A stretch of 64,000 nucleotides of DNA from Candidatus Eiseniibacteriota bacterium (GTDB lineage Bacteria; Eisenbacteria; RBG-16-71-46; CAIMUX01), in NCBI GenBank assembly GCA_903844735.1, contig CAIMUX010000133.1, positions 1-64,000 on the forward strand, in the 5' to 3' direction. Shown piece after piece: positions 1,567 to 47,825 of this stretch. The translations under genes and the position numbers were made by a program. The first letter of the stretch is position 1, and the number at the start of each line of letters is the position of its first letter. Under the pieces are notes generated by a model. That model was not told where the DNA came from and ran no database searches. It saw nothing but the letters and a program-made list of their open reading frames with translations.

Positions 1567-1625
1567 TTCCCGCGGTCCCTCATCGTGCGTACGCCAACCC
1601 AACGGACCGAAGCGTGGAGGATCTT

Positions 1626-2312
1626 GTGGATCGCAAAGGACTGGGTCGCGCCGGCGGGATAGGCTGGCTGGTGGTCGTTCTGGTGTTGCCGGGCGAGGGT
1701 GCGGTGCGCGCCCAGGAGTTCACGGACGCTATCTCGCGGAAGGTGTCGGTGCTGAACGGGGCGGGTGAGTTCGGCGATGCGGTCAGTCGTACAATCGCGG
1801 TCGGGAACGGGACGCAGGAGTTTGTCGACGCGAATGACCGATTGCTCTCGGTCACGACGACGCTGTATAGCGATGCGATTGCGCGGCAGGTGGCGGTTTG
1901 GAATTCGCCGGCGGGGATGGTGGAGGGGTTTGGGGATGCGAGTGGGAGGTTGTTTTCGGTTTACGTGGACTCCGTGCAAACTGGCGGGTCGATCGTCGCG
2001 TGGGGACCGTGCGATCTTGATTCCGCTCTCTGCGCCGTGCCCCCGCCCAATTCGGGGTTCGTGGCGGTCGCCACAGCCTCTTGCGACAACTTCGGTCTCA
2101 AGTCTGATGGGACAATCGTGAGCTGGCACTCGGAGGACCCGTTTTCCCCCTGCCCGGAAGGGTGGGGGGATGCTGTCCCCGAGCCGAACTCCGGCTTCGT
2201 GGCGGTCTCGGGAGGCTATTACTACAGTTTGGGCCTTAGGTCGAACGGGGAGATTGTGGCGTGGGGAGCTTTGGGGAGGATCGCCTCTTTCTCTTCCTTT
2301 CGGATGAGATGA
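1626..2312 (+). CDS. secreted repeat protein with RCC1-like blades, 3' truncated (cassette B, copy 1)
   Basis: The GTG start at 1626 follows GGAGG at 1616-1620. A signal peptide ends near AVRA-QEF. It is followed by five short repeats of the form (F/Y)xDAxxRxxxV and then RCC1-like units (GSIVAWG; GFVAVATASCDNFGLKSDG; GFVAVSGGYYYSLGLRSNG). The RCC1 frame is cut at about 2268, exactly where a 69-bp repeat begins, and the last residues (LGRIASFSSFRMR) are read from the repeat. The paralogue at 7755-8870 continues into a Cys-rich part and a C-terminal sorting domain, both missing here. This copy is therefore probably truncated and not properly anchored or exported. Confidence 0.75.
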   Translation: MDRKGLGRAGGIGWLVVVLVLPGEGAVRAQEFTDAISRKVSVLNGAGEFGDAVSRTIAVGNGTQEFVDANDRLLSVTTTLYSDAIARQVAVWNSPAGMVEGFGDASGRLFSVYVDSVQTGGSIVAWGPCDLDSALCAVPPPNSGFVAVATASCDNFGLKSDGTIVSWHSEDPFSPCPEGWGDAVPEPNSGFVAVSGGYYYSLGLRSNGEIVAWGALGRIASFSSFRMR

Positions 2313-2337
2313 CAATGAAGGCTTGGGGCTGGTTGAT
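2269..2337 (+). repeat. 69-bp direct repeat, copy 1
   Basis: Positions 2269-2337 and 3491-3559 match at 68 of 69 bases; the one difference is T at 2310 against C at 3532. The last 23 bases are the start of a reading frame beginning MKAWGWL, which looks like the first residues of a signal peptide. The repeat therefore seems to be a leader plus the 5' end of a secreted-protein gene. A shorter relative of the first 41 bases lies at about 8918-8958, downstream of the intact cassette B gene. Confidence 0.93.
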
Positions 2338-2380
2338 CGTTCTATCCGTACCGAAACCGGCTACCGCCCGTGGGCGCTGA
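2315..2380 (+). pseudogene. 5' end of a secreted-protein gene (21 codons)
   Basis: An ATG inside the 69-bp repeat opens a 21-residue frame, MKAWGWLIVLSV followed by PKPATARGR, with a charged start, a hydrophobic core and an Ala-x-Ala-like region. This looks like a signal peptide without a body. In the second copy of the repeat the same start runs only MKAWGWLMA before a stop. Most likely both are gene starts cut off by recombination; expression is doubtful. Confidence 0.4.
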
Positions 2381-2440
2381 TCCTTCGGTGAACCGCCGAT
2401 GTCCGTCGCCGTCCCCGGGTTCTATCCCTGCGCCGGGTGC

Positions 2441-3297
2441 TCACGTGTCACCGCCTCGTTCTGCCTCCCGATCGAGAATGGCGCGTCCTTCGGTGGTGAG
2501 TCGGTACTTCTGCAGGCGACTGTTTGGAGTATCCGGCAGCGTGTACTCGATGATTCCCTGTTCCAGAAGATTGCGCACCGTACGCTGCAGCGAGCCGGTT
2601 CTGGTTTTCAGCCCCAACGCGCCGGCGACCTCGCTCATCGATCGCGGAGCCCGGCGCAGCAATCCCAGGACCTGCCCTGACTGCACCCCTGACTGCACCC
2701 CTGACTGCACCCCTGAAGGGGCGAGAGAGGGGCCATCGACTGCGGTCCCTGTACGCACGGGCAATCGGATGAGAAAGTGCGTTCGGTCCCCATCGCTTTC
2801 GAACCGCGGCGGCGCCGAGCCATTCTGGGCCATCACCTTGAGGATCTTGGGAATCCCCGTCGAGCACCCCTCGGTGAGGTCGAGCTCCTTCAGAAACTCG
2901 CCGATTCGCCGGTTGCGATACCGACGACTGACCGCCCGGCCGGCCTGAAGATCTTCCATGCGTATCGAGCGATCCGGTCCCGGAAAGCTCAACACCACCA
3001 GTTCGTCGGGCGTGATGCGCACTTCCACCGGTTCCCGCACCTCGTACGAGCGGTGGTACACGGCATTGACCACGGCCTCTTCGATCGCCGCCCTCGGGAA
3101 ATTCCAGAACCGCTCTGCTTCGGGACGATCGGCGTGCTTGATGACGGTTTCCTTGAGATAGTGGCGCTCGATGTAGTCGATGGCGTCGCGGGTGATGCGT
3201 GCCAGTGGTCCCTGAAAGATCTTCTCCTCGAAGCGATCGCCTCCCGCGCCCTCCGGAAACCACACGACATCGATCTGCGTCGCCGGAAAGAAGCGAT
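2441..3297 (-). pseudogene. AlbA_2/RecG-like ATP-binding regulator, C-terminal part
   Basis: This is the C-terminal two thirds of a COG2865-type putative transcriptional regulator (AlbA_2 domain, GHKL-like ATP-binding part, winged helix). Visible signatures are FWNFPRAAIEEAVVNAVYHR (ATP-binding N-box-like), PDELVVLSFPGPDRSI and GCSTGIPKILKVM, then three SGVQ repeats and a C-terminal winged helix (SMSEVAGALGLKT). The homologous part begins at HRFFPATQ near 3297. The N-terminal AlbA_2 domain is missing, because 3296 onward is instead the sense strand of a sorting-domain fragment. The open frame continues to 3802 through unrelated DNA, so a single long chimeric protein could be made in theory. 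A remnant is more likely. Confidence 0.75.
2684..2724 (-). repeat. three 12-bp units coding SGVQ
   Basis: The plus strand reads CTGACTGCACCC three times in succession around 2684-2724. On the minus strand this encodes SGVQSGVQSGVQ, a flexible linker between the ATP-binding and winged-helix parts of the regulator. Such linkers are frequent in this family. Confidence 0.7.
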
Positions 3298-3442
3298 GCG
3301 TGGCGTCTTGGATGGACGCACGATCACACAGGAATGGGACGGTCGAGACGATGCCGGGCGGGAAACGCCGACCGGGGTCTATCTGGCCCGGCTGCGCAGC
3401 GGATCGGGTGAGGTGCTCGCGAAGCTCATCAGGGCGCGGTGA
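3296..3442 (+). pseudogene. C-terminal half of a type IX/FlgD-like sorting domain
   Basis: In the plus frame ending at 3442 the sequence reads VLDGRTITQEWDGRDDAGRE, then TPTGVYLARLRSGSGEVLAK and LIRAR-stop. It is nearly identical to the end of the protein at 7755-8870. The downstream bases (TGA AACGGAACGG.GCCTCAGGC) also match, so this is a piece of gene plus its 3' flank. It starts abruptly in the middle of the domain, and no upstream reading frame belongs to it. The missing first half has a matching orphan fragment at 9833-9964. Confidence 0.8.
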
Positions 3443-3490
3443 AACGGAACGGAGCCTCAGGCAAATGCTGAGTGGTGGGGGCGGTCTTCT

Positions 3491-3559
3491 CTTTGGGGAG
3501 GATCGCCTCTTTCTCTTCCTTTCGGATGAGACGACAATGAAGGCTTGGGGCTGGTTGAT
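3491..3559 (+). repeat. 69-bp direct repeat, copy 2
   Basis: Second copy of the repeat at 2269-2337 (one mismatch). Its left flank is the normal 3' flank of a sorting-domain gene, also seen at 8871-8917. Its right edge is exactly where the nucleotidyltransferase-like gene on the minus strand loses its homology. The repeat therefore marks a recombination junction. Confidence 0.93.
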
Positions 3560-3802
3560 GGCGTGACCGCCGCGCAGGTACTTGAGCTGTATGGGGGGAA
3601 CCGCGATCACCTCAGCTTGAAGATCGTCGAGTGCCCGACGCAGCCGGACCAGGTTGGCGGCATCGGCCAGGATGGCGAGGTCTGTGTCGCGGCTAAACTC
3701 GGCTGCGCCGTAGAACACGCACGCCTGTCCGCCCATGAGCAGGGCGCGAACGCGGTGCGCGCGGATCGAAGAAAGGACTTTGAGTATCGGGTTCGGGATC
3801 AA
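3557..3802 (-). pseudogene. nucleotidyltransferase-like gene, N-terminal fragment
   Basis: About 82 residues from MIPNPILKVLSSIRAHRVRA resemble the N-terminus of small nucleotidyltransferase-fold proteins: ALLMGGQACVFYGAAEFSRD, then TDLAIL with the GG/GQ and DxD-type elements. Proteins of this kind are usual in mobile toxin-antitoxin-like pairs. Homology stops at YLRGGHAI, exactly at the edge of the 69-bp repeat. The frame then runs antisense through the repeat and into the regulator fragment. The start overlaps the upstream 76-codon gene, as expected for a translationally coupled pair. Nearly certainly inactive. Confidence 0.75.
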
Positions 3803-4029: not shown

Positions 4030-4083
4030 TCATGCCGCGATCTTGATCTGCGGATCCACGCCTCCGTCGGCGACCAGAGTCAT
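4030..4083 (-). pseudogene. DUF5615 (PIN-like toxin) start, truncated
   Basis: The ATG at 4083 overlaps the DUF433 stop in an ATGA arrangement and opens MTLVADGGVDPQI before running into KIAA-stop. DUF5615 PIN-like proteins typically start with (M)xLVADEGVD.QIV. They are usually the second gene of a DUF433-DUF5615 pair with just this overlap. Only the first 13 codons are left, so the toxin half of the pair is lost. Confidence 0.6.
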
Positions 4084-4319
4084 GAGACCGTCTTGCTGAG
4101 TGGATGGGCGACCTCTGTTTTCATCGCCTCGGCAGCGAAGGCTAGGGCCGCCAGCACCCCCTCCCGAGTGAGCCGAGGATGCGCCCCAAGAATGTCTTCC
4201 AACGACTCTCCCGCCGCCAGCTTCTCCAGGATGAGCTCGACGGTGATCCGGGTGCCCAGGATCACGGGCTTGCCCATCATGATCTCCGGGTCGGAAACAA
4301 CTTTCTCCGTGATGTTCAT
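4080..4319 (-). CDS. DUF433 antitoxin-type protein
   Basis: A 79-residue protein starting MNITEKVVSDPEIMMGKPVI at 4319, with GGAG 8 bases upstream. The diagnostic DUF433 core is visible: DPEIMMGKPVILGTRITVEL, ILEKLAAGESLEDILGAHPR and LTREGVLAALAFAAE. DUF433 proteins are VapB-like helix-turn-helix antitoxins and normally pair with a DUF5615 PIN-like ribonuclease. Here the partner survives only as a 13-codon start, so this is an orphan antitoxin. A longer frame with an upstream start at 4391 exists but does not match the family N-terminus. Confidence 0.88.
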   Translation of the reverse strand: MNITEKVVSDPEIMMGKPVILGTRITVELILEKLAAGESLEDILGAHPRLTREGVLAALAFAAEAMKTEVAHPLSKTVS

Positions 4320-4636
4320 GGTCGAAACTCCATGGCCAAGATCCGACCGATTCTGCCGTCGCATGTGCCAGAGTATCCGGGACGAGAGCAAGCGTACCCA
4401 GGAACCGATCGCACTGCTACGATTTGCCCATCATCCGGCGGGCAGGACTCTTTGCAAGGGCCGGATGAGCCTACGTTGCCGAGCAGAGCGAACTCGTCGC
4501 CCGGCGAACCGGGGACGGGCAAAACCGCACGACGTGCGAATGCCGGCGTCTGGGCCGAACGCAAGGAATTCTCCCAGTGGGCCGGCGTCAGATCGATCGA
4601 TGTCTCCGTTGGAATCAGCGTCCCGGGCAGGGTCAT
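4316..4636 (-). CDS. hypothetical small ORF overlapping an AbiE-like fragment
   Basis: A 106-codon frame (MTLPGTLIPTETSIDLTPAH...) whose ATG overlaps the stop of the preceding minus-strand fragment at 4633-4636 (ATGA), a layout typical of coupled genes. The first 20 residues look gene-like. After about residue 35 the composition becomes Cys/Gly/Pro-rich and irregular, suggesting that the original gene is broken there. I recognise no family. It may be only the start of a lost partner gene. Confidence 0.3.
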   Translation of the reverse strand: MTLPGTLIPTETSIDLTPAHWENSLRSAQTPAFARRAVLPVPGSPGDEFALLGNVGSSGPCKESCPPDDGQIVAVRSVPGYACSRPGYSGTCDGRIGRILAMEFRP

Positions 4637-5547: not shown

Positions 5548-5707
5548 GCTCTCGGCCCTCCAGTCGTCAATGAAGCGGGCTAGGGCGACGACGTGGAAGA
5601 TCTGCAGCGGGACCTGCTGGAAGTCATAGAGATGCCGCTGCAGGACGGTGAGCCCACGTTCGAGTCGGAGTTTGTCGGGGTTCCATGAGGTAGCGTTCAC
5701 GCGGCCA

Positions 5708-5757
5708 CATGACCTGGATGAACTGGCGGCGGGCTGAGAATCGATCGATCCGAGTCT
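5708..5757. repeat. about 48-bp dispersed repeat, copy 1
   Basis: CATGACCTGGATGAA.TGGC begins a block shared with 8975-9025 at roughly 85-90 percent identity. One copy lies just 5' of the DUF6883 unit and the other just 3' of the MqsA-type gene. It is not part of a recognised gene and may mark an old junction. Confidence 0.75.
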
Positions 5758-6351: not shown

Positions 6352-6785
6352 GGGGGGCCACCGTACCATTGTTGTGGCCGGCTATGCACACGTGAGTCGG
6401 CCTTCGTGCCATTGTCCCGGTCGGCTACCCGCACGTGAGTGGGCCTTCGTGCCATTGACCCGGGCGGCTACCCGCACGTGAGTGGGCCTTCGTGCCATTG
6501 ACCCGGGCGGCTACCCGCATGCGAGTGGGCCTTCGTGCCATTGTCCCGGGCGGCTACCCGCATGCGAGTGGGCCTTCGTGCCATTGTCCCGGGCGGCTAC
6601 CCGCATGGGAGTGGGCCTTCGTGCCATTGACCCGGGCGGCTACCCGCACGTGAGTGGGCCTTCGTGCCATTGTCCCGGGCGGCTACCCGCACGTGAGTGG
6701 GCCTTCGTGCCATTGTCCCGGTCGGCTACCCGCATGCGAGTGGGCCTTCGTGCCATTGTCCCGGTCGGCTACTCATGCGTGAGTG
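6352..6785. repeat. 43-bp tandem repeat (minisatellite), about 10 copies
   Basis: The block GTGGGCCTTCGTGCCATTG followed by (A/T)CCCGG(G/T)CGGCTACCCGCA repeats with an exact 43-bp period. Phase marks are at 6395, 6438, 6481, 6524, 6567, 6610, 6653, 6696 and 6739, with a degenerate copy at 6352 and a partial one at 6782. Copies differ only at a few sites (GACCC or GTCCC; CACGTG, CATGCG or CATGGG). There are no unique spacers. The open frames through it are repeat artefacts because 43 is not a multiple of three. Confidence 0.95.
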
Positions 6786-7296: not shown

Positions 7297-7735
7297 ATGA
7301 TGCGGTTCTATCAAGGCGAACAGCATCAACCTCACCGGTTCCAGCACACCCAACTACAGCCAGATGTGACCGCTCGAAAACGACGAGGCGGTGATCTGGC
7401 CGCCCGCGGACGCCCCGGCGGTCCGCGTCACGACACTCGCCGGGCTGCCCGTCCCGGCCGATCCCACGTCGGACTTCATTCCACCGGCGGATCTCCTCGT
7501 CGTCGCCACCGACTCGGTCGACGTCGAGATCGAAGCGCAGAACGTGCCGACCGACCTCGCACGCCGGTGGAACGTGAAGCTCCGGGTCGTGCTCCGCTCG
7601 GGCGAGGAGTACCTGCGCTCGGCAAGCTACGAGTCGGGCGACAGCACGCTCTCCCACTGGTCCGCGACGCTGCCGCCGCTGCCGGAGGCCGAGTTCGTCG
7701 CCATCGGAGCCCGCGTCTCGAAGCCGGGCTACTGA
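7297..7735 (+). pseudogene. internally deleted copy of the glycine-rich gene (cassette A, copy 2)
   Basis: The ribosome-binding site and tandem ATG-ATG at 7297 mirror the start of the gene at 232. After a few codons the sequence jumps to the end of that gene: INLTGSSTPNYSQM, an in-frame TGA, then PLENDEAVIWPPADAPAVRV, EIEAQNVPTDLARRWNVKLR and EFVAIGARVSKPGY. The whole glycine-rich middle, about 1 kb, is missing. The start codon is out of frame with the conserved tail, so no full product is possible. The tail alone could be translated from 7391 (114 residues) but lacks a signal peptide. Confidence 0.75.
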
Positions 7736-7754: not shown

Positions 7755-8870
7755 ATGCATCCAAACCGATGCGGGCCCACGCCCGTCCGGGGCCGCGGCC
7801 GTCGCGTCCCGGGCATCCGCTATGTGCTCTCTGCAGTCTCGTGCCTCTTTCTCCCTGCCGCAATCGCAGGCGCCGAATCTGTCCCGATCGAGGACGCGAT
7901 GGGTAGGAATTTCACGGTCATCCGCGCCGGGGCGCCGGCGCCCATCGCGGATGCGTTCAGCCGGGAGGCGACCGCCTTTCGCCCGGAGCGCACGGCGGTC
8001 ATCGCGTCGATAGCGGATGCGTTCGGCCGGGAGTTCTCGGTCTACCGCCCGGTGCTGCCGGTGCCGGTACCGGTGCCGGTGGAGGACGCGTTTTCGCGTG
8101 AGTTCGTTGCCATTGGGGCGCCGGTAGACGCCGGGATTTCGGATGCCGCGTCGCTGGAGTTTGCGGTTTTTCGGCAGGGTCTGGCGGTGCCGATAGCGGA
8201 TGCGGGGGGGCGGGAGTTTTCGGTTTACTTGGACACGGTGCAAGTCGGTGGGTCGATTGTAGCGTGGGGACCGTGCGATGATCATTGGGGTGACGCGCAC
8301 ACGTACCTGGCCGTCCGGAATCCTTCCTGGTGGGGGGCCTGCTGTGCCCCCACCGGCGTCTGCACAGTGAAGCCGGCGGCGGCATGCGCGACGCCGAGCA
8401 TCTGGCAAGGCCCGGGGTCCAACTGCCTGGTGAACCCGTGCCCGCAGCCGCCGGGTGCCTGCTGTGCCCCGGACGGCGCGTGCACCGTGATAGAGCAGTT
8501 GGCGTGTACCGATCCGAGCTTCTGGCAGGGACCGAGCATCCCCTGCACGCCCAACCCCTGCACCGTTAGCGACGTGGATGATGTTCCGCTCGCCACCACG
8601 CTGGCCTTCCGGGTCGCGCCGACTCCGTTCGCACAGAGAACGGCGCTGGTCTTCGCCGGACCGAAGGGGACGGAGGCGAGCCTGCAGATCTTCGACGTTG
8701 CCGGTCGCAGGGTGCGAAGCGCCTGGCGCGGCGTCTTGGACGGACGCGAGATCACACGGGAATGGGACGGGCGCGACGATGCCGGGCGGGAGACACCGAC
8801 CGGGGTCTATCTGGCCCGGCTACGCAGCGAAGCGGGCGAGGTGGTCGTGAGGCTCGTCAGGGCGCGGTGA
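7755..8870 (+). CDS. secreted repeat protein with C-terminal sorting domain (cassette B, copy 2)
   Basis: A 371-residue protein; the ATG at 7755 follows GGGAGG. A signal peptide ends near AIAGA-ES. Next come six repeats of the type (I/V)xDAxxREFxVxR (for example IADAFGREFSVYR, VEDAFSREFVAIG), then the GSIVAWGPCD element that begins the RCC1-like part in copy 1. Here that part is very short. It is followed by two Cys-rich units (GACCAPTGVCTV and GACCAPDGACTV with later Cys). Residues about 288-371 form a FlgD-like/type IX sorting domain (IFDVAGRRVRSAW, EWDGRDDAGRETPTGVYLAR). Export to the outer surface is inferred from this domain. Function is unknown. Confidence 0.85.
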   Translation: MHPNRCGPTPVRGRGRRVPGIRYVLSAVSCLFLPAAIAGAESVPIEDAMGRNFTVIRAGAPAPIADAFSREATAFRPERTAVIASIADAFGREFSVYRPVLPVPVPVPVEDAFSREFVAIGAPVDAGISDAASLEFAVFRQGLAVPIADAGGREFSVYLDTVQVGGSIVAWGPCDDHWGDAHTYLAVRNPSWWGACCAPTGVCTVKPAAACATPSIWQGPGSNCLVNPCPQPPGACCAPDGACTVIEQLACTDPSFWQGPSIPCTPNPCTVSDVDDVPLATTLAFRVAPTPFAQRTALVFAGPKGTEASLQIFDVAGRRVRSAWRGVLDGREITREWDGRDDAGRETPTGVYLARLRSEAGEVVVRLVRAR

Positions 8871-8917
8871 AACGGAACGGCGCCTCAGGCGAGCACTGGG
8901 GGGTGGGGCGGTCTTCT

Positions 8918-8958
8918 CTTTGGAAAGGATCGCCTCTTTCTCTTCCTTCCGTGAATCC
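8918..8958 (+). repeat. partial copy of the 69-bp repeat family
   Basis: CTCTTTGGAAAGGATCGCCT plus the following CTTTCTCTTCCTTCCG match the first part of the repeats at 2269 and 3491 with a few changes. It follows the stop codon of the sorting-domain gene after about 45 bp, which appears to be the natural position of this element. Confidence 0.75.
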
Positions 8959-8974
8959 GGCGTTCAGGCTAAGG

Positions 8975-9026
8975 CATGACCTGGATGAATTGGCCGCTGG
9001 CTGTGAGTCGATCAATCCGAGTGCGC
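8975..9026. repeat. about 48-bp dispersed repeat, copy 2
   Basis: Counterpart of 5708-5757 in the same orientation. It lies between the 3' ends of the converging sorting-domain gene and the MqsA-type gene. Confidence 0.75.
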
Positions 9027-9542: not shown

Positions 9543-9832
9543 GACGAGCCTGCCTTCCGGTCTTGTCCGTGTCGTCGAGCGGCACTTCCTGCCGCGGCAT
9601 GCGGTGCCAACGCTACCCGGGACCGCCGGCGTCGCACGGCCCGGGGCGTCCGGCGGAGCCGAGGCGGGCTCAAGCCACCCCAATCGCGGCGCCTCGTGCC
9701 GCGTTGGGACAGCCAACTGGTCCGCCATGATACGAGAGAGCTCAGTCCTGCGCAACGATGAGCAGGTTGTATGACTGTGGGGGTGCTGACGGATCTCTCA
9801 TTGCTGATAGTGCAGCTACTCGCCGCCAAGCT

Positions 9833-9964
9833 CGGTTTCCGAGTCGTGCCGACTCCGTTCGCGGAGAGGACCGCGCTGGTCTTCGCCGGACCGAAGGGGA
9901 CGGACGCGAGCCTGCAGATCTTCGACGTGTCCGGGCGCAGGGTGCGCAGCGCCTGGCGCGGTGT
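9833..9964 (+). pseudogene. N-terminal half of a sorting domain
   Basis: The plus frame reads FRVVPTPFAERTALVFAGPK, GTDASLQIFDVSGRRVRSAW, RGV, nearly identical to the first half of the sorting domain of the protein at 7755-8870. Homology stops at CTGGCGCGGTGTC, within a few bases of the point where the C-terminal half fragment at 3296 begins. The frame is open from 9771 and continues into the next ORF, giving a chimeric 138-codon reading frame. Confidence 0.8.
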
Positions 9965-9977
9965 CAACGGTACGGAC

Positions 9978-10187
9978 ATGTTGACACATGAAGAGAAGCT
10001 GGAACCGCTGGAGCTTGCGCATTCGACGACCACGCGCGACGAGTTTCACGCCCTCAAGCTCGGCTCGCGGCCTGTGCGGTCGGCCCCGCTCGACTTGGAC
10101 CGATACCTCGAATTTCTCACGGCGATGAGCAGATTCCAGCCGATTCCCCATCGTGAGGCTGTGGAGTACCGTAACGTCCTCATCTGA
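9978..10187 (+). CDS. small hypothetical protein (69 aa)
   Basis: MLTHEEKLEPLELAHSTTTR followed by a basic region and PLDLDRYLEFLTAMSRFQPI. This resembles, by recall, small conserved proteins of mobile gene pairs that carry a (P)xDLDxYLxFLTxxN motif near the C-terminus; the function is unknown. The ATG at 9978 has no clear ribosome-binding site. The frame is also open upstream through the sorting-domain fragment. Confidence 0.5.
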   Translation: MLTHEEKLEPLELAHSTTTRDEFHALKLGSRPVRSAPLDLDRYLEFLTAMSRFQPIPHREAVEYRNVLI

Positions 10188-10825: not shown

Positions 10826-11187
10826 GGTTCCCCTCCACGCCAGCCCGTGGTCCGAAGTTGCGATGAGGAAGCCACCGCGGTCCGCTCGAGGTCTCCGGGT
10901 CGGCGTGTAGGATACGCTACGGGTCTTCGCCCGACACCTTTCCTCCGAATGTCAGGTAATCCGATCGGGGGTTGTCCCGCCCCCCTCCCACCCGTTATGC
11001 TTGGGTGGATGCAGAGGATTCCGACCGCGCCGCGGTCGTTCGCGGCAGGACTCCCCAAACGGGGCGGGGTCGGGAATATGGCCGGACTCAGCGGCATCGC
11101 GGACTGTCTCATCTGCCCCGCGATCCGGTCGCAATGATTCGGAGGCCTTAACCGTTCGAGGCCTAAACCGGGAGCGCAGGAGGAAAC
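10826..11187. other. divergent intergenic region
   Basis: About 360 bp between the hypothetical gene on the minus strand and the 18-codon frame at 11188. Apart from the promoter-like pair at 10972-11001 I see no gene. There is no recognisable tRNA or known riboswitch. Confidence 0.5.
10972..11001 (+). promoter_or_regulatory. candidate promoter for the lat unit
   Basis: TTGTCC (10972-10977) and TATGCT (10996-11001) with an 18-base spacer. It lies about 190 bp before the 18-codon frame and 440 bp before the aminotransferase start. It is a fair but not strong match to a sigma-70-type promoter. Confidence 0.4.
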
Positions 11188-11244
11188 ATGAACCGCCAGA
11201 CGCGACGCATGCTTCTGTGCATCTACCTCGTCTGCAACCTCTGA
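11188..11244 (+). CDS. 18-codon peptide upstream of lat
   Basis: AGGAGG directly precedes this ATG with ideal spacing, the best ribosome-binding site in the neighbourhood. The frame encodes MNRQTRRMLLCIYLVCNL and stops. The peptide has a basic start and a hydrophobic end. It is followed by about 200 bp of GC-rich sequence before the aminotransferase. It could be a leader peptide, a small membrane peptide or the start of a decayed gene. It has no run of Lys codons, so a classical lysine attenuator is not supported. Confidence 0.4.
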   Translation: MNRQTRRMLLCIYLVCNL

Positions 11245-11442
11245 CGCCTCCTCGCCGGGCCGCGCGCGGGGTTCCCCTGACGGGATCCCGCAACCGGTGA
11301 GACGACCCTGCCCGCGGGGCCGGATCGCTCTCCAACCCGGCGGCCTCAAAGGTCAACCGCCACCGATAGCCATTACCGATACGAAGCCATGAACCAAAGA
11401 GCCGGCGGGCCACGCCCCGACCGGCCCGAGGAGGACGCCCAC

Positions 11443-12810
11443 ATGCCCCTTTCCCACATCGCCCCGCCTGAGGTTCTCACGAGTCTTCGCAAGCACATGC
11501 TCATCGACGGCTTCGATATGGTCCTGGACCTGGAGAAAAGCCACGGATCCTGGCTGATCGATGCGACCACCGGCCGGAGCTTCGTCGATTTCTTCTCCTT
11601 CTTCGCCTCCGTGCCGGTGGGAATGAACCACCCCCGACTGACCAGCGGCGAGACGATCCAGACGCTGGGGCGCCTGGCGGTGAACAAGCCGACGAACTCG
11701 GACATCTACACAGTGGCCATGGCCGAGTTCGTGGACACGTTCTTCCGCGTCGGCGTTCCGTCGCACTTCAAGTACTCCTTCTTCGTGGAGGGAGGCTCGG
11801 TGGCAGTGGAGAACGCGCTCAAGACCGCCTTCGATTGGAAGGTGCGCAAGAACCTGGCCCGCGGCTACACGCCCGAGAAAGGGTACCCCAACGGCCACGG
11901 CCACCAGGTGATTCACTTCCACGGCTGCTTCCACGGCCGCACCGGCTACACGCTTTCCTTGACCGACTCGCCCGACCCGCGGAAGACCCAGTGGTTCCCG
12001 CGCTTCGAGTGGCCTCGGGTAACCACCCCGGCCGCGGTCTTCCCGATGGAGGGGGCGAACCTGGAGCACACCATCGCTCTGGAGACGCAGGCGATCCAGG
12101 AGATCAACGCAGCACTCGACCGGAACAAAGACGACATAGCGGCCCTCATCATCGAGCCGATTCAGGGCGAAGGAGGCGACAACCACTTCCGTCCCGAGTT
12201 CCTCGCCGCCCTGCGTCGCCTCGCCGACGAGCGCGAGTTCCTACTGATCTTCGACGAGGTGCAGACCGGCATGGGGATCACCGGCACCTTCTGGGCGCAC
12301 GAGCAACTCGGGGTGAAACCGGACGTCATTTCCTTCGGGAAGAAGACTCAGGTCTGCGGCATTCTCGCCGGCCCCCGCGTCGAGGAGAACGAGCAGCATG
12401 TCTTCAACACCAGCAGCCGGATCAACTCCACCTGGGGCGGAAACCTCATCGACATGGCTCGCTGCCGCCTCTACCTCGAGATCATCGAGGAGGAGAGTCT
12501 GATCGAGAACGCCAGGAAGCAGGGGGCTCACCTTCTCTCCGAGCTCCAGAAGATGGCGGCGGAACTGCCGGACCTGGTCACCAATGTCCGCGGGCGAGGC
12601 CTGATGTGCGCCTTCGACCTGCCGGCCGGGGACCATCGCTCGCAGTTCATGCAGAAGGCCTGGGAGGAAGGCGTGATGATCCTCCCCTGCGGAACCCGCT
12701 CGGTCCGCTTCCGCCCGGCGCTCAACATCGACGCCGAAACGATGGGCGAAGGCCTGACCCGCGTGCGGCGCGTGCTGCTCGCCATCGATCGTATGGGCGG
12801 ACCGCTGTGA
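11443..12810 (+). CDS. lat: L-lysine 6-aminotransferase
   Basis: A 455-residue class-III PLP aminotransferase that moves the epsilon amino group of L-lysine to 2-oxoglutarate, giving aminoadipate semialdehyde/piperideine-6-carboxylate. The ATG at 11443 follows GAGGAGGA with 7-base spacing; the frame opens earlier at 11389 but without a site. Lat-type signatures are present: SFFASVPVGMNHPRL, FFVEGGSVAVENALKTAFDW, FHGCFHGRTGYTLSLT, IIEPIQGEGGDNHFR, LIFDEVQTGMG, and the PLP lysine in SFGKKTQVCG. The product is the substrate of an antiquitin-type dehydrogenase such as the one at 52179-53693. The downstream polyferredoxin starts 14 bases later, so the two may share a transcript. Confidence 0.92.
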   Translation: MPLSHIAPPEVLTSLRKHMLIDGFDMVLDLEKSHGSWLIDATTGRSFVDFFSFFASVPVGMNHPRLTSGETIQTLGRLAVNKPTNSDIYTVAMAEFVDTFFRVGVPSHFKYSFFVEGGSVAVENALKTAFDWKVRKNLARGYTPEKGYPNGHGHQVIHFHGCFHGRTGYTLSLTDSPDPRKTQWFPRFEWPRVTTPAAVFPMEGANLEHTIALETQAIQEINAALDRNKDDIAALIIEPIQGEGGDNHFRPEFLAALRRLADEREFLLIFDEVQTGMGITGTFWAHEQLGVKPDVISFGKKTQVCGILAGPRVEENEQHVFNTSSRINSTWGGNLIDMARCRLYLEIIEEESLIENARKQGAHLLSELQKMAAELPDLVTNVRGRGLMCAFDLPAGDHRSQFMQKAWEEGVMILPCGTRSVRFRPALNIDAETMGEGLTRVRRVLLAIDRMGGPL

Positions 12811-12826: not shown

Positions 12827-14017
12827 ATGAGAGGACCGCTTCGCCCGCTGTACCTGCGGCGACTGGCGCAGCTCGGGATCCTCGGCGCCGTGACCTGGCT
12901 CGCGCTGGGCCACGGCCGCCGGCCCTTCGAGGCCTTCTGTCCGTTCGGCGGCGTCGAGGCGGCCTGGGGCCTCATCCGCCAAGGCACCTACAGTTGCACC
13001 ACGAGCGAGATGAACGCCGCCATGCTCATCGGGGTGGCGGTTCTCGCCCTTTTCGCCGGGAAGGCGTTCTGCTCTTGGATCTGCCCCGTGGGCTTCTTCG
13101 GAGAGATGCTGTACAAACTCGGGCGCGTGATCCCGTTTCTACGTGGCGTGATGCTGCCGCTGCACGCCGACCGGTGGCTGCGGCTGCTCCGCTATCCGTT
13201 CACCGTCCTCATGCTGGTTCTGACGTATCGCGCCGGCGAGCTGGTCTTGCGAGGTTATGACCCGTTCTACATCCTCTTTTCCGGCTTCGGTCACGGCACC
13301 CTCGGTCTGGTTTCTGCTGTCGCCATCGGTGTCTTCGTCCTGGGCTCCGTCGTGGTGCCGATGCTTTGGTGCCGGTTTCTCTGCCCGCTGGGCGCAGTGC
13401 AGGACCTGGTGGCGCGCTTCGGCCTGCTGCGCCTGCACCGCAGTAGCCCGGCATGCACCTCGTGCGGCGCATGCGATCGAGTCTGCCTGCAGCGCATCGC
13501 GGTGAGCACGCCTGCAACCATCGCTTCCATCGACTGTACCCGGTGCCTCGACTGCATCGACGCGTGCCCCACCGGCGCGCTCACGGTAAGACTCGGGACG
13601 CCATGGCCAGGCGGGGCGCGTACGGCAGCGTGGAAGGTGTCTCGGTGGCTGGTGCCGGTGCCGGTGGCCGCGGCCATGGTCCTCGGCCTGCGGGTGTCGG
13701 AGCCGCTCACGCTGCCGACCGCGGAGGCGTCGTTCTACGACTCTGCCGATCTGGCCATGCCCGAGACCTGGTCTTACACCGTCGAAGGGGTGAAGTGCAC
13801 AGGGACTGCGAACTTCTTCATCGGCCGAGCTTCGGCATTCGCGGGCGTCGCCGCCATCAAGGCCTACGCCGGAACGAACCGCGTGGTCATGACCTTTGAC
13901 CGGGTCCGAATCAGCGCGGAAGCGCTTCGCGACTCGATCGACGCGCCGGTGAGAAACCCGCGGACGGGAGAACCGATCAGAGTTTTCCGCGTCAGGGAGA
14001 TGAAGCAGGGGGGCTAG
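12827..14017 (+). CDS. membrane polyferredoxin (NapH/CcoG-like) with C-terminal HMA-like segment
   Basis: A protein of about 396 residues with several transmembrane helices. It has two membrane-adjacent Cys pairs typical of NapH-like polyferredoxins (FCSWICPVG and CRFLCPLGA; an FCPFGG precedes them). These are followed by two soluble 4Fe-4S motifs (CTSCGACDRVC and CTRCLDCIDACPTGAL). A further membrane segment follows (VPVPVAAAMVLGL). The tail, VEGVKCTGTANFF to SAEALRDSI, looks like a degenerate heavy-metal-associated or Memo-like alpha/beta domain with a single Cys. Likely role is electron transfer from quinol or across the membrane to an unknown acceptor. GTG 12824 and ATG 12827 are both possible starts. 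Confidence 0.8.
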   Translation: MRGPLRPLYLRRLAQLGILGAVTWLALGHGRRPFEAFCPFGGVEAAWGLIRQGTYSCTTSEMNAAMLIGVAVLALFAGKAFCSWICPVGFFGEMLYKLGRVIPFLRGVMLPLHADRWLRLLRYPFTVLMLVLTYRAGELVLRGYDPFYILFSGFGHGTLGLVSAVAIGVFVLGSVVVPMLWCRFLCPLGAVQDLVARFGLLRLHRSSPACTSCGACDRVCLQRIAVSTPATIASIDCTRCLDCIDACPTGALTVRLGTPWPGGARTAAWKVSRWLVPVPVAAAMVLGLRVSEPLTLPTAEASFYDSADLAMPETWSYTVEGVKCTGTANFFIGRASAFAGVAAIKAYAGTNRVVMTFDRVRISAEALRDSIDAPVRNPRTGEPIRVFRVREMKQGG

Positions 14018-41533: not shown

Positions 41534-41727
41534 CGGAGGAAATCGCGGCCGGACTGCGTTTCTCAGCACTGCACGCCCCCGCCCGGGCCCGCCGCGTTGG
41601 GCCCTGCCCGGCCTCCCCGCCTCGTCTGCCCTCCCCGACGGGCTGCGTTCCGGCATCCCGCATGTATTCGTGTTACACTCAGTAGGAGGAGCCGACCTGC
41701 CACTGGCCGGCGCCGTAGCAAGCTTGG

Positions 41728-41782
41728 CGGCCGCCACCACACCGGGGCAGATCTTTGGGAATGCCCCTCGGAGGGTTTTCGC
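41728..41782 (+). promoter_or_regulatory. conserved leader with hairpin before M1 peptidase 1
   Basis: The 55 bases before the ATG (CGGCCGCCACCACAC...) match the leader of the second peptidase gene. GGGGCA (41744-41749) can pair with TGCCCC (41762-41767), placing a stem-loop just before the GGAGGG site (41770-41775). The stem is kept in the other copy although the loop differs, so the RNA structure may matter for translation. Confidence 0.5.
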
Positions 41783-44557
41783 ATGACGTCGGCCTACCTG
41801 CGCCGCATTCAGCCGGTTGTCCTGATCGCCGTTCTCGCGACTCTCGTCCTCTCCACGGCGCCCCCCGCCGTTGCCCGCACCGGGCCGGAGTCGGGGACTC
41901 AGCCGGCGGAATCGGAGTGGTTCCCACCGACGAAAGCCGGCTGGCCCGGCGCCTGGCTCGACCCACGCAATTCGGCGCCGTATTTGGCCTTCCACCAGAC
42001 AGCGGCGAAGCAAGCCAAGTCAGCGCTGCGGGAGGAGCCGACCTCCAACCAGGCGCTCTACGACGCCCGATACTACGCCCTCGATCTCTCGCTGAACCCG
42101 ACCACCCGGATCCTCACCGGTGTGGTCACGATGTGGCTCACCGTCACGGGCGGACCTCTGACGCAGGTCGACCTGGATCTCGCAGACAACATGGTCGTCT
42201 CCTCATTAACCTCCGCCGGAATTCCGGTCACCTTCACGCACACTGGCGGGATCCTGCGGGTTAACCTCGACCGTACGTACGCCAACGACGAGAACGCGAC
42301 ACTGGTGATCCAGTACGCGGGCAACCCGGCCGGTGATGCCTTCGGGTGGGACACCGCGGAGAGTCAACTGATGATCTGGACGCTGAGTGAGGCATTCGGC
42401 GCCCGGGACTGGTGGCCCTGCAAGGACTATCCGGACGACAAGGCTGACTCCGTCGACGTGCGCGTCACCGTCCCCACCGGCCTCATCACCGTCAGCAACG
42501 GAAATTTGCGCCAGCAATCGGACAACGGCACCCAGGCTTTTAGCTGGTGGCACGAATCGCACCCGATCACCACCTACCTGGTTTCATTGGCCATTCACAC
42601 GTACCATGTCTACTCGGACTGGTACGTCCCCGCCTTCGGTGACTCCATGGCCATCACCTTTTACAACTACCAATCGAGCATTCCCGGCGTGGAGCCGGTC
42701 CAGGCCAAGGTGAAGAACATGATGGCGATCTTCGCCGCCCGTTTCGGCGAGTACCCCTTCCTCGACGAGAAGTACGGCCACGCCGAGTTTCCCTGGGGCG
42801 GCGGGATGGAGCACCAGACCGTTACCAGCCTCGGGTATTTCGGGGAGGGCGTAGTGGCGCACGAATTGGCCCACCAGTGGTGGGGCGACATGGTCACCTG
42901 CGCCAACTTCCACGATGTTTGGCTGAACGAAGGACTCGCCACATACTGCGAGGCGATCTACCGCGAGGGACTGGACGGCCCGGACGCCTACCTCGACGAA
43001 ATGCTGGCCGCGCAATACCTGGGCGCGGGAACCATCTATGTCCCCGACACCAACGACTGGAACCGGATCTTCGATTCCAACCTGTCGTACAACAAGGCGT
43101 CATGGGTCCCGCACATGCTCCGCGGGATCATGGGTGACTCGACGTTCTTCGCCGCGATGGGGGAATTTCGTAATCGCTTCGCTTATCGCTCAGCGACCAC
43201 CGGGGATTTCCGGGCCACCATGGAGGACATCTCCGGGCGCGACCTCGGGGCGTTCTTCCAGCAGTGGATCTACGGCGAATACTACCCGATCTACCACTAC
43301 GGCTGGACTGCCGCGCCGGCGGGTGGTGGATGGGATGTCACCCTTACCGTGAACCAACTGCAGAGTTGGCAGCTCTTCACCATGCCGATCCAGGTCGTGG
43401 TCACGACGGCGACCGGGGAGCGCACCTTCCAGGTGGAGGATGCTCTCGCCAGCCAGGTTTTCACTCTGCACACCGACGCGCAGCCCACGGAGGTGGCGCT
43501 GGATCCAAGCCACTGGATCCTGCGCCAGGTCCTCGCCCCGCTGCCCACGCCGACGTTTGACAGACAGCTCCTTCTGGTGAACGGTGTCGATTGGGCCACC
43601 TACGGCACAGAGATCACCACCGCCTACCAGGACCGCTCGTTCACCGGCGGTTACCCCGTGGACTTCTGGGACGTCTTCGCTGCGCCGTCCGGTGGATATC
43701 CTACGTCTCTCCCGGCGCCACTGGGGCACGGTACGTTGACGCCTGAGGTGATGGCCCACTACAAGACGGTCGTCTGGGTCGGAAACAACTACAACGGCGA
43801 CCTGGCCTCCTGGATGGACTCGCCCGTCTATTCGTATCTGCAGGCAGGCGGGAATCTCCTGCTCCTGACGCGGCAGGGGAGCCTGTTTCTGAGCGGCCCT
43901 CTGCAGACCTATCTCGGGATCTCCTTCCTGAGCACCGGGACCATCTACGACTGCATCGCCACCTACCCTGGGCTGACAAACATCAGCCGGCTGGGGACGC
44001 AGGACCAGGTGAGTGGTTTCAGCACCACCGTGGGATCGGAGACAACGCTTCTGTACAAGGCGGTGAGCGGGCACACGCCCAACTGGGGAATCGGTGCAAT
44101 CCGGATCCCGCCGGCGGGGGGCACCTACAACCCGCAAGGAGGACGCCTGGCGTTCCTCAGCGGGCGGGCCTACCGCTGGAACCACGCGAACCTCAAGACC
44201 AACTGCGAATTCATCCTCGGGAACCTGCTGGGGCTCCCGCTGGTCACCGGCTCGCAAACGGTAGGGATCCCCGCGCGGTTGTCGCTGCGTCCCGCTTCGC
44301 CGAACCCTTTCAGCACTGAGACGGAGTTGCGGTTCGTGCTTCCGACCGCGGCGCAGGCCCAAATCGAGGTTTTCGACCTCGCAGGACGCCGGGTGCGGAC
44401 GCTGCCGGAACAGCCGATTCTGTTTCCGGCCGGCGAGCACCGGCTCCCCTGGGACGGACTCGACGAGTCCCGGCGACCGGTCTCCTCAGGAGTCTACTTC
44501 CTGCGCCTGCAGGCCGGCGGACAGACGCGCGAGGAGCGGGTCTTGCGGGTGCGCTGA
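41783..44557 (+). CDS. secreted M1-family metallopeptidase with C-terminal sorting domain, copy 1
   Basis: A 924-residue exported aminopeptidase-like protein; the ATG at 41783 follows GGAGGG. The signal peptide is VVLIAVLATLVLSTAPPAVA. The M1 domain has GGGMEHQT (substrate loop, about residue 340), HELAHQWWGD (zinc, His 360 and 364) and WLNEGLATY (third zinc ligand). A later domain (LLLVNGVDWATYG, VVWVGNNYNGDLASWMDSPV) resembles a glutamine-amidotransferase-like fold. The end is a sorting domain (IEVFDLAGRRVRTLPEQPIL, LPWDGLDESRRPVSSGVYFL). It should cleave peptides outside the cell or on its surface. A strong terminator follows. Confidence 0.93.
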   Translation: MTSAYLRRIQPVVLIAVLATLVLSTAPPAVARTGPESGTQPAESEWFPPTKAGWPGAWLDPRNSAPYLAFHQTAAKQAKSALREEPTSNQALYDARYYALDLSLNPTTRILTGVVTMWLTVTGGPLTQVDLDLADNMVVSSLTSAGIPVTFTHTGGILRVNLDRTYANDENATLVIQYAGNPAGDAFGWDTAESQLMIWTLSEAFGARDWWPCKDYPDDKADSVDVRVTVPTGLITVSNGNLRQQSDNGTQAFSWWHESHPITTYLVSLAIHTYHVYSDWYVPAFGDSMAITFYNYQSSIPGVEPVQAKVKNMMAIFAARFGEYPFLDEKYGHAEFPWGGGMEHQTVTSLGYFGEGVVAHELAHQWWGDMVTCANFHDVWLNEGLATYCEAIYREGLDGPDAYLDEMLAAQYLGAGTIYVPDTNDWNRIFDSNLSYNKASWVPHMLRGIMGDSTFFAAMGEFRNRFAYRSATTGDFRATMEDISGRDLGAFFQQWIYGEYYPIYHYGWTAAPAGGGWDVTLTVNQLQSWQLFTMPIQVVVTTATGERTFQVEDALASQVFTLHTDAQPTEVALDPSHWILRQVLAPLPTPTFDRQLLLVNGVDWATYGTEITTAYQDRSFTGGYPVDFWDVFAAPSGGYPTSLPAPLGHGTLTPEVMAHYKTVVWVGNNYNGDLASWMDSPVYSYLQAGGNLLLLTRQGSLFLSGPLQTYLGISFLSTGTIYDCIATYPGLTNISRLGTQDQVSGFSTTVGSETTLLYKAVSGHTPNWGIGAIRIPPAGGTYNPQGGRLAFLSGRAYRWNHANLKTNCEFILGNLLGLPLVTGSQTVGIPARLSLRPASPNPFSTETELRFVLPTAAQAQIEVFDLAGRRVRTLPEQPILFPAGEHRLPWDGLDESRRPVSSGVYFLRLQAGGQTREERVLRVR

Positions 44558-44931: not shown

Positions 44932-44937
44932 CTCTGA

Positions 44938-44993
44938 CGGCCGCCACCACACTGGGGCGGGTCCACGGGGTTGCCCCCTCGGAGGGTCTCCAC
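44938..44993 (+). promoter_or_regulatory. conserved leader with hairpin before M1 peptidase 2
   Basis: Counterpart of 41728-41782. GGGGC (44954-44958) pairs with GCCCC (44973-44977) just before GGAGGG (44981-44986). Loop bases differ from copy 1 while the stem is kept. Confidence 0.5.
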
Positions 44994-47825
44994 ATGAAGT
45001 CGGCTCGTCTGCACCGCACCCTTCTCGGCTTCCTGCTGACCACTTTTGTCGCCCTGGGGCTCACAACGGTGTCCATCGCCGGAGCCCGCCCGGACCCGGG
45101 ATCGCGCACGCTCCCGACCGAGCCGGAGTGGTACCCGCCGACCAAGGCCGGATGGCCGGGCGGGTGGCTTGACCCGCGGGACCCGGCCCCATATCTGGCC
45201 TTCCACCAGGCGGCGGCGATGCGGGCGAAGGCGGCACTGCGCCAGGAACCAACACCGAATCAGGCACTGTATGACGCGCGGTACTATGCTCTTGACCTCT
45301 CGCTGGACCCAACGGCCAAGATCCTCACCGGTACGGTCACGATGAGGCTCACGGTCACCAGCGGGCCGCTGTCCGAGATCGACCTGGATCTGGCGGACAA
45401 TATGGTCGTGGACTCACTGTTCACGGTCGTTGACGCACTGTCTTCCGCCCGCGTGCCGACCACGTTCACCCACACCGGCGGAATCCTGCGGGTCAGCCTC
45501 GACCGCACCTACATCAACGGCGAGGACGCAACTCTGGTGATCCAGTACGCGGGCAACCCGGCGGGAGCCGCAGTCTTCGGATGGGACACGGCGGCCGGCC
45601 AGCCGCTGATCTGGACCCTGAGCGAGGCGTTCGGAGCCCGGACATGGTGGCCGTGCAAAGACTACCCGGACGACAAGGCCGACTCCGTCGATATACGCGT
45701 CACCGTCCCCACCGGTCTCATCACGGCGAGCAATGGGAGACTCCGCGAGCAATCGGACAACGGCACCCAGGCCTTCAGTTGGTGGCACGAATCGTATCCG
45801 ATCACAACCTACCTCGTTTCGCTGGCCATCCACTCCTACCACGTCTACTCGGACTGGTACCATCCGGCACACGGCGATTCGATGGAGATCACGTTCTACA
45901 ATCTTGCGTCGAGCCTTCCGCGCGTGGAAGCGGTCCAGGCGAAGGTGAAGGACATGCTGGAGATCTTCGCCGACCGCTTCGGCGAGTATCCCTTCGTGGA
46001 CGAGAAGTACGGCCAAGCCGAGTTTCCCTGGGGCGGCGGGATGGAGCACCAGACCTGCACCAGCCTCGGGCATGGCGCCTTCGGTGAGTGGATCATGGTC
46101 CACGAGCTCGCCCACCAGTGGTGGGGCGACATGGTCACCTGCTCCAGTTTCCACGACATCTGGCTGAACGAGGGGTTCGCCACCTACAGCGAGGCGATCT
46201 ATGCCGAGGCGCTGGGGGGCCGGGCAGAGTACCTCAAAGAGATGCGGGGCACGCAGTACTTCGGTCGAGGAACGCTCTATGTTCCCGTCACCGACGACTG
46301 GAATCGGATCTTCGATCGCTTCCTGTCGTACAACAAGGCATCGTGGGTTCCGCATATGCTGCGCGGAGTCATGGGCGACTCGACCTTCTATGCGGGACTG
46401 CGCGAGTACCGCACCCGTTTCGCCTACCGTTCGGCCGGCACCGCGGATTTCGCCGCCGCAATGAGCGAGGTCGCGGGCCCCGGCCTGCGGCCGATGATCG
46501 AACCGATGATCCATCGTTGGATCATGGGCGAGGGGTACCCGATCTACCGCTATGACTGGACGGAGGCGACGGATGGCCCGGGCTGGGCAGCGCGCGTCCG
46601 ACTCCGGCAGGTCCAGGAAACGCCTGTCTTTCCGATGCCGGTACGTCTCGTCGTGCGGGTCGAGGACGCCGGCGGCGACACCCTACAGACGTTCACGGTC
46701 GAAAGCACGGGACGGGACTCCACCTACACCCTCAACCTGACGCGACGGCCGCTGCGCGTCGACGTCGACCCTGAGGAGTGGATCCTGCGCCGGGTGATGC
46801 CGCCGATCCCCGCGCCGACCTTTGCGAAGCCCCTCCTCGTCGTAAACGGCGTGACGTGGAGCGGGGAGAAAGGCACGCTACTGCGCGCGGGGTACGAGGC
46901 ACGGGCCTTCACCGCCGGGTACGATTTCGATTTCTGGGACAATCAGGCAGCCCCGGGCGACGGATACCCGGCGACACTCCCCTTGCCGATCGGGCACGGT
47001 CCGGTTTCCGGAGAGGTGCTCGCCCGGTATAGAGCCGTGCTGTGGGTCGGGGACAACTTCGGCAGCGACCTCGTCCACTGGACCAACTCGCCGATGCACG
47101 CCTACCTGGAGTCGGGCGGAAACATCCTGCTCCTCGTTCCCAGCGCCCGGACGTTCCTGCTGGAGCCGTACAGGGCCTGGCTGGGTGTGTCCTGGGCGGA
47201 CGGCGATAGCGTGGTGACCTCCGGCGAGGCCATGGCGGGATGGCTCCCGGACCTGGGCGTCCCCGTCGAGAGTACCCAGAACGCCGTTTCGTTCTTCACC
47301 GTCGATAGTGCCAGCGTAGGGAAAGACGTGCTGCTCTTCGCGGATCGGGGCGACTCGACCCGCGCCTTCGGTCTGCTCGGCCCTCCGGGAGGGGTCATGG
47401 CCCGTCCGGCGGGCGGGGTCACAGGCCCTTCCATGGGCGGGCGCTTCGCGCTGATCGGAGGCCGGCCCTACCGCTGGAACCCGGGTGACCTGCGCGCCGC
47501 GATGGAGGCGATCCTGCCGCAGTTGCTGCCGCCGGTGTCGGCCGGTGCCCGGTTGGCGGTGCGAACGGCCGGACCGAACCCGTTTCGCAACCGGACGAAG
47601 GTGGCGTTCTTCTTGCCGGAGACGATGACGGCACGCCTGGAAGTCTTCGACGTCGCGGGACGCAGGGTGCGCACGCTGCGCAACAATCTGTCACCCGCAG
47701 GCTGGAACGCCGAGACCTGGGATGGGCGAGATGCTGCCGGGCACAACGTGGCCTCGGGAGCCTACTTCGTGCGCTTGGCCGCGGGCGGGAAGACGGCGAC
47801 GGACCGGCTCGTCCGGATCCGTTAG
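44994..47825 (+). CDS. secreted M1-family metallopeptidase with C-terminal sorting domain, copy 2
   Basis: A 943-residue paralogue of the preceding gene with the same architecture. It has a signal peptide (LLGFLLTTFVALGLTTVSIA), GGGMEHQT, HELAHQWWGDMVTC (His 370 and 374) and WLNEGFATYSEA, then the amidotransferase-like region (LLVVNGVTWSGEKG, VLWVGDNFGSDLVHWTNSPM) and a sorting domain (LEVFDVAGRRVRTLRNNLSP, TWDGRDAAGHNVASGAYFVR). The N-terminal domains are very close, and the C-terminal thirds have diverged. This points to tandem duplication followed by specialisation of the non-catalytic part. Confidence 0.93.
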   Translation: MKSARLHRTLLGFLLTTFVALGLTTVSIAGARPDPGSRTLPTEPEWYPPTKAGWPGGWLDPRDPAPYLAFHQAAAMRAKAALRQEPTPNQALYDARYYALDLSLDPTAKILTGTVTMRLTVTSGPLSEIDLDLADNMVVDSLFTVVDALSSARVPTTFTHTGGILRVSLDRTYINGEDATLVIQYAGNPAGAAVFGWDTAAGQPLIWTLSEAFGARTWWPCKDYPDDKADSVDIRVTVPTGLITASNGRLREQSDNGTQAFSWWHESYPITTYLVSLAIHSYHVYSDWYHPAHGDSMEITFYNLASSLPRVEAVQAKVKDMLEIFADRFGEYPFVDEKYGQAEFPWGGGMEHQTCTSLGHGAFGEWIMVHELAHQWWGDMVTCSSFHDIWLNEGFATYSEAIYAEALGGRAEYLKEMRGTQYFGRGTLYVPVTDDWNRIFDRFLSYNKASWVPHMLRGVMGDSTFYAGLREYRTRFAYRSAGTADFAAAMSEVAGPGLRPMIEPMIHRWIMGEGYPIYRYDWTEATDGPGWAARVRLRQVQETPVFPMPVRLVVRVEDAGGDTLQTFTVESTGRDSTYTLNLTRRPLRVDVDPEEWILRRVMPPIPAPTFAKPLLVVNGVTWSGEKGTLLRAGYEARAFTAGYDFDFWDNQAAPGDGYPATLPLPIGHGPVSGEVLARYRAVLWVGDNFGSDLVHWTNSPMHAYLESGGNILLLVPSARTFLLEPYRAWLGVSWADGDSVVTSGEAMAGWLPDLGVPVESTQNAVSFFTVDSASVGKDVLLFADRGDSTRAFGLLGPPGGVMARPAGGVTGPSMGGRFALIGGRPYRWNPGDLRAAMEAILPQLLPPVSAGARLAVRTAGPNPFRNRTKVAFFLPETMTARLEVFDVAGRRVRTLRNNLSPAGWNAETWDGRDAAGHNVASGAYFVRLAAGGKTATDRLVRIR

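Follow-up and report, generated by a model that had tools for sequence, protein, structure and literature searches.

The 69-bp direct repeat near the start of the window (the whole 64-kb stretch of DNA analysed here) is probably the stretch that two pieces of one ancestral gene tail still have in common after local rearrangement in a decaying island of genes. In copy 2 its left half corresponds to the 3' arm and T-rich tail of a predicted intrinsic terminator. What had been supposed to be a new recombination site gives way to a more ordinary account, in which part of a terminator has survived as a remnant in this island.

Copies of the repeat and the joints around them

Copy 1 (2269..2337, plus strand) and copy 2 (3491..3559, plus strand) are identical at 68 of 69 bases, the sole difference being T/C at repeat position 42, and a diverged partial copy formed by the terminator arm and tail of gene B lies at 8918..8951 (plus strand; 31/34 bases match). 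The single difference and the partial copy behind gene B had both been noticed in a sequence-only reading of this DNA, and both are confirmed. By position-by-position matching, the next best site in the window reaches only 37/69 and is itself this related partial copy, which excludes chance as the source of the 69-bp match. The same reading proposed a genome-wide search, and named an absence of further copies as evidence against its own view of the repeat; across 5,401,399 bases in 142 contigs we found only the two full copies, with partial relatives at 8918-8951 and on contig C53 (C53:13227-13259). Both partial copies sit downstream of genes with a matching FlgD-like 3' end. The repeat core has no match in viral contigs, and the region around the repeat has none among plasmids or phages.

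Each full copy adjoins a truncated gene. Gene A, encoding a secreted RCC1-repeat protein (1616..2268, plus strand), is cut at 2268 (joint J1, 2268/2269); its RCC1 homology reaches 2267, at the left edge of copy 1, and tblastn with the RCC1 genes of relatives stops at the conserved IVAWG of the RCC1 repeat, 1-3 bp before the 69-bp repeat, so that the loss of homology claimed earlier for this edge holds. On the other side of copy 2, a nucleotidyltransferase-like gene (3560..3802, minus strand; without Pfam or NCBIfam match) retains 81 N-terminal codons and is cut at J3 (3559/3560), presumably just at the right edge of the copy as the earlier reading had it, with homologues covering only residues 1-65 of the remaining 81. 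Between the copies lies a further joint, J2 (3297/3298), which was absent from the sequence-only reading and which brings the joints around the repeat to three rather than two: RCC1 to repeat, AAA4 to FlgD, and repeat to nucleotidyltransferase. To the left of J2 is the C-terminal half of an AAA4-type gene (2441..3297, minus strand; HATPase_c_4 and Fic-like_C) whose 5' half is gone; what is left matches, from FFPATQIDVV onwards, the latter half of a homologue of 522 aa (L165). FlgD homology starts at the very next bases, where a FlgD-like C-terminal domain is represented by its second half and stop codon (3298..3442, plus strand), 88% identical to gene B.

This content bears on whether a mobile element inserted here, at 2338-3490, with a 69-bp target-site duplication. 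The 1153 bp are indeed flanked by direct repeats, yet the insert consists of half an AAA4 gene and half a FlgD domain with no transposase or integrase, and the fused target, running from RCC1 through the repeat into the nucleotidyltransferase, would be meaningless. Known transposon target duplications are also far shorter than 69 bp, and we regard such an insertion as extremely improbable.

At a fourth joint, J4 (9965/9966), a FlgD-like domain (9819..9965, plus strand; 86-91% identical to three paralogues) breaks off after its first half, at most 10 bp from the point where the half at 3298 starts. The two halves, first at 9819-9965 and second at 3298-3442, stand in reversed order and 6.4 kb apart, and their matching cut suggests a single gene that suffered one break, after which its halves came apart, although identity to the paralogues falls short of proof. 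Linearisation of a circular intermediate within FlgD would have an attractive geometry, with the second half at 3298 and the first ending at 9965; we rejected it as the missing AAA4 half, which the model requires to the right of 9965, was not recognised there. Right at J4, and overlapping the start of a small ORF, is a perfect 8-bp inverted repeat, GTGTCAAC-N11-GTTGACAC (9961-9987), a candidate operator-like sequence or element end. A search of RNA families returned a single sub-threshold match, at 9960-9997, and none at the 69-bp repeat.

Fragments wrongly joined in a draft assembly could produce a similar picture. The genome is a draft of 142 contigs with a contamination estimate of 5%, and the contig carrying the window (C133) starts inside a 9-bp tandem array. 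Ordinary reads, however, are longer than the 69-bp repeat, no shared repeat that could mislead an assembler was seen at J2 or J4, and on contig C53 the same family shows joints independent of these. The joints without shared repeats and the independent locus make assembly error less likely, and we consider it an unlikely, though not negligible, source of the arrangement.

The minus strand from 2441 to 3802, comprising the nucleotidyltransferase fragment, the antisense of FlgD and the AAA4 half, forms a single open frame of 453 aa. We rejected a functional fusion protein: 28% of shuffles also leave the middle part open, and on C53 the strands antisense to the FlgD ends are open as well (ORFs 13196-13648 and 11159-12526). 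The openness of the frame is thus not beyond chance and gives no evidence of selection.

A predicted terminator in the left half of the repeat

The predicted intrinsic terminator (3477..3520, plus strand) begins 35 bp past the FlgD stop codon (3440-3442), and no other terminator-like site in the region is as strong. Its stem-loop (3477-3510) has 15 pairs and a 4-nt loop (3492-3495, at the left edge of the repeat), followed by a pyrimidine-rich, T-rich tail, TTCTCTTCCT. The fold of 3440-3560 has an energy of -50.9 kcal/mol (z -3.6), and 0 shuffles were equally good. Copy 2 thus shows what is expected of a rho-independent terminator, namely a G+C-rich stem-loop, a T-rich tract directly after it and a position behind a gene end, and the hairpin is kept in paralogues. 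A hairpin at the matching place also folds in gene B and in both paralogues on C53 (C53a and C53b), with z-scores (B -1.6, C53a +1.4) of which neither is significant alone.

The first base of the repeat coincides with the last one of the 5' arm, which places the repeat's left edge at the tip of the hairpin. Cut at this tip, copy 1 has kept only the 3' arm and the T-rich tail, followed by ATG AAG GCT TGG GGC TGG TTG AT. Unlike a rho-independent terminator it lacks a complete stem, and the full stem is predicted no longer to fold; with the 5' arm absent, its fold is no better than shuffles (z +1.3) and a short stem of 7-8 pairs is left.

The reading frame in the right half had been taken for the start of a signal-peptide gene, MKAWGWL, and this assignment is not confirmed. 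A secreted-gene start would be expected to run on into a mature protein and to have homologous starts elsewhere. The frame meets a stop after 21 codons in copy 1 and after 9 codons in copy 2, and a degenerate search of the genome found DNA encoding MKAWGW at no sites besides copies 1 and 2. Its similarity to the start of gene A is not beyond chance (62/1000 shuffles were as good), and no significant likeness to neighbouring gene starts was found.

Related gene tails in the window and on C53

Gene B (7755..8870, plus strand) is an open gene for a secreted protein of the RCC1/FlgD family with a residual RCC1 start and a FlgD-like end, and appears itself to have lost most of its RCC1 repeats. The tail of copy 2 (3298-3524) is 88% identical to the end of gene B (8726-8951), 82% to C53:13460-13227 and 78% to C53:11444-11242. 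Copy 2, B, C53a and C53b thus have both FlgD end and terminator tail in common, at 77-88% identity, and form one gene-tail family. Its four members leave homology at different points of the repeat: position 69 in copy 2, 34 in B, about 41 at C53:13227 and about 12 at C53:11242.

C53 carries the same gene set with joints of its own, glycine-rich to RCC1 at 13942 and DUF433 to FGE near 12475. The DUF433 gene block of the window (4037..4432, minus strand) is 87% identical to C53:12475-12884, with different flanks, and on C53 this block (12884-12475) directly precedes a truncated FGE-sulfatase-like gene with the shared FlgD end. Across 11300-13942 of C53 (L019), adjoining genes differ in their N-terminal parts (RCC1 in one, FGE-sulfatase-like in the other) and are closely similar in their FlgD C-terminal end and 3' flank, a gene pair that would fit domain shuffling in secreted proteins.

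These comparisons bear on a dedicated site, the proposal of the sequence-only reading that the 69-bp repeat is recognised by dedicated recombination and that secreted-protein genes are cut and joined there. Part of that proposal stands, as gene fragments really are joined where the repeat lies; the copies are near-identical, each has one edge at a joint, and one edge falls at the tip of a hairpin. The specific site does not stand. A site-specific recombination site should occur in several genomic copies that share their edges but not their neighbours, whereas here full copies are limited to two in the genome, the partial relatives have other edges, and the related tails depart at four different points. 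Furthermore, the island joints at 3297/3298, 9965/9966, C53:13942 and C53:about 12475 are without the repeat, and the conserved left half is accounted for by the terminator. Among the island genes that were family-searched, no recombinase was recognised in Pfam matches. We therefore hold a dedicated site to be very unlikely.

Origin of the repeat

With the fragments, joints, terminator and paralogues established, we infer an order of events, the involvement of template switching and a role for the hairpin. A repeat ends, by definition, wherever either copy is cut, and the coincidence of edges and joints is a consequence of that definition; as the cut lies to the left in copy 1 and to the right in copy 2, the 69 bp are their overlap, and a recognised sequence is not needed. 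The ancestral tail would have run from a FlgD-like C-terminal domain through its stop codon and intrinsic terminator into a short downstream stretch. Its setting would have been a decaying island of duplicated secreted-protein operons, each with a glycine-rich gene and an RCC1/FlgD gene, together with toxin-antitoxin genes. Local rearrangement, by ordinary illegitimate recombination or template switching, would have placed one piece of the tail behind the truncated RCC1 gene (copy 1), while the other piece stayed and was joined to the truncated nucleotidyltransferase (copy 2).

The three joints could have arisen by more than one route. A tandem duplication of the unit comprising the second half of FlgD, the repeat and the AAA4 half would account for the AAA4 to FlgD joint, and two later deletions, from RCC1 to the hairpin tip and from the end of the repeat to the nucleotidyltransferase, would account for J1 and J3. 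Alternatively, a single template-switching event during replication would yield all three, which is more economical than a duplication and two deletions. The pattern published for template switching is one of duplications mixed with deletions (PMC2621351), as here. The MMBIR described there resembles the present case in its short duplicated piece, deletions and blunt fragment joints, and differs in that here the parental sequences for scoring microhomology are lost. No Ku gene was found in a search of the genome, which makes Ku-dependent end joining unlikely; end joining would need other routes.

As a DNA hairpin, the terminator stem may have promoted the break at its tip (J1), a suggestion drawn from one joint and from a coincidence noticed after the fact; none of the other joints showed a comparable hairpin. 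Breakage at palindromes through cutting by SbcCD is known (PMC3315005, PMC4245961), and large deletions in bacteria are promoted by inverted repeats (PMC3519483). The likeness to hairpin cleavage by SbcCD/Mre11-Rad50 (PMC3315005, PMC4245961) is that an inverted repeat has one of the present joints at its tip; the difference is one of scale and evidence, with a 15-bp stem here against a 460-bp palindrome in PMC4245961, and a single joint known from sequence alone.

The order of the ancestral genes is likewise inferred, as we found no close relative with the unrearranged order. Searches for an unrearranged locus gave no match in the same-family genomes G001 and G002, order-level relatives matched only in short RCC1, FlgD or other pieces, and the flanking aminotransferase used as a query in the named genomes found distant loci only, 51-58% identical.

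A broader notion is that the terminator hairpins of this family are recurrent break points, at which C-terminal sorting domains and N-terminal domains (RCC1, FGE-sulfatase-like, glycine-rich) are shuffled above chance. We consider this a long shot. Should the link between hairpin and joint prove true of many genomes, it would reveal how new N-terminal parts come to stand before a shared C-terminal domain in secreted proteins.

The surrounding island

The first 11 kb of the window consist of repeated pieces of one gene set. These include a glycine-rich gene (238-1566) with a fragment at 7334-7719, and the RCC1/FlgD genes, namely that at 1616-2268, gene B and fragments. The other island genes are DUF433, DUF6883, DUF4926, MqsA-like and DUF4258, several of them of toxin-antitoxin type.

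An island so rich in toxin-antitoxin-like genes recalls integron cassettes, and the genome's own integron integrase might have gathered these and the secreted-protein pieces. The integrase is encoded on a contig other than that of the repeat (L172; G000:C76:898-1854, minus strand; 412.7 bits against a cut-off of 265), and a C-terminal fragment of an integrase (L173; G000:C115:3238-3369, minus strand) lies at the end of contig C115. Under the strict R''/R' consensus, however, no attC-like RYYYAAC/GTTRRRY pair was found in the window, C53, C76 or C115, and, unlike cassettes, the genes here occupy both strands and are broken internally. An integron origin is accordingly highly improbable. C76 and C115 have a 186-bp stretch in common (85%).

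Past 12 kb, the window has one other strong repeat pair only, and its remainder holds no comparable repeats besides that paralogous 1.4-kb pair (41725-43148 and 44935-46389, 78% identical) and one 35-bp match. Within the island, a direct repeat of 63 bp (81%) at 5693-5755 and 8960-9022 lies beside the toxin-antitoxin-like genes DUF6883 and MqsA-like. An intergenic tandem array at 6355-6785 has about ten copies of a 43-bp unit. The 9-bp array in which the contig starts (AATCTGCGT) occupies positions 1-137, and its translation reads as an NLR repeat.
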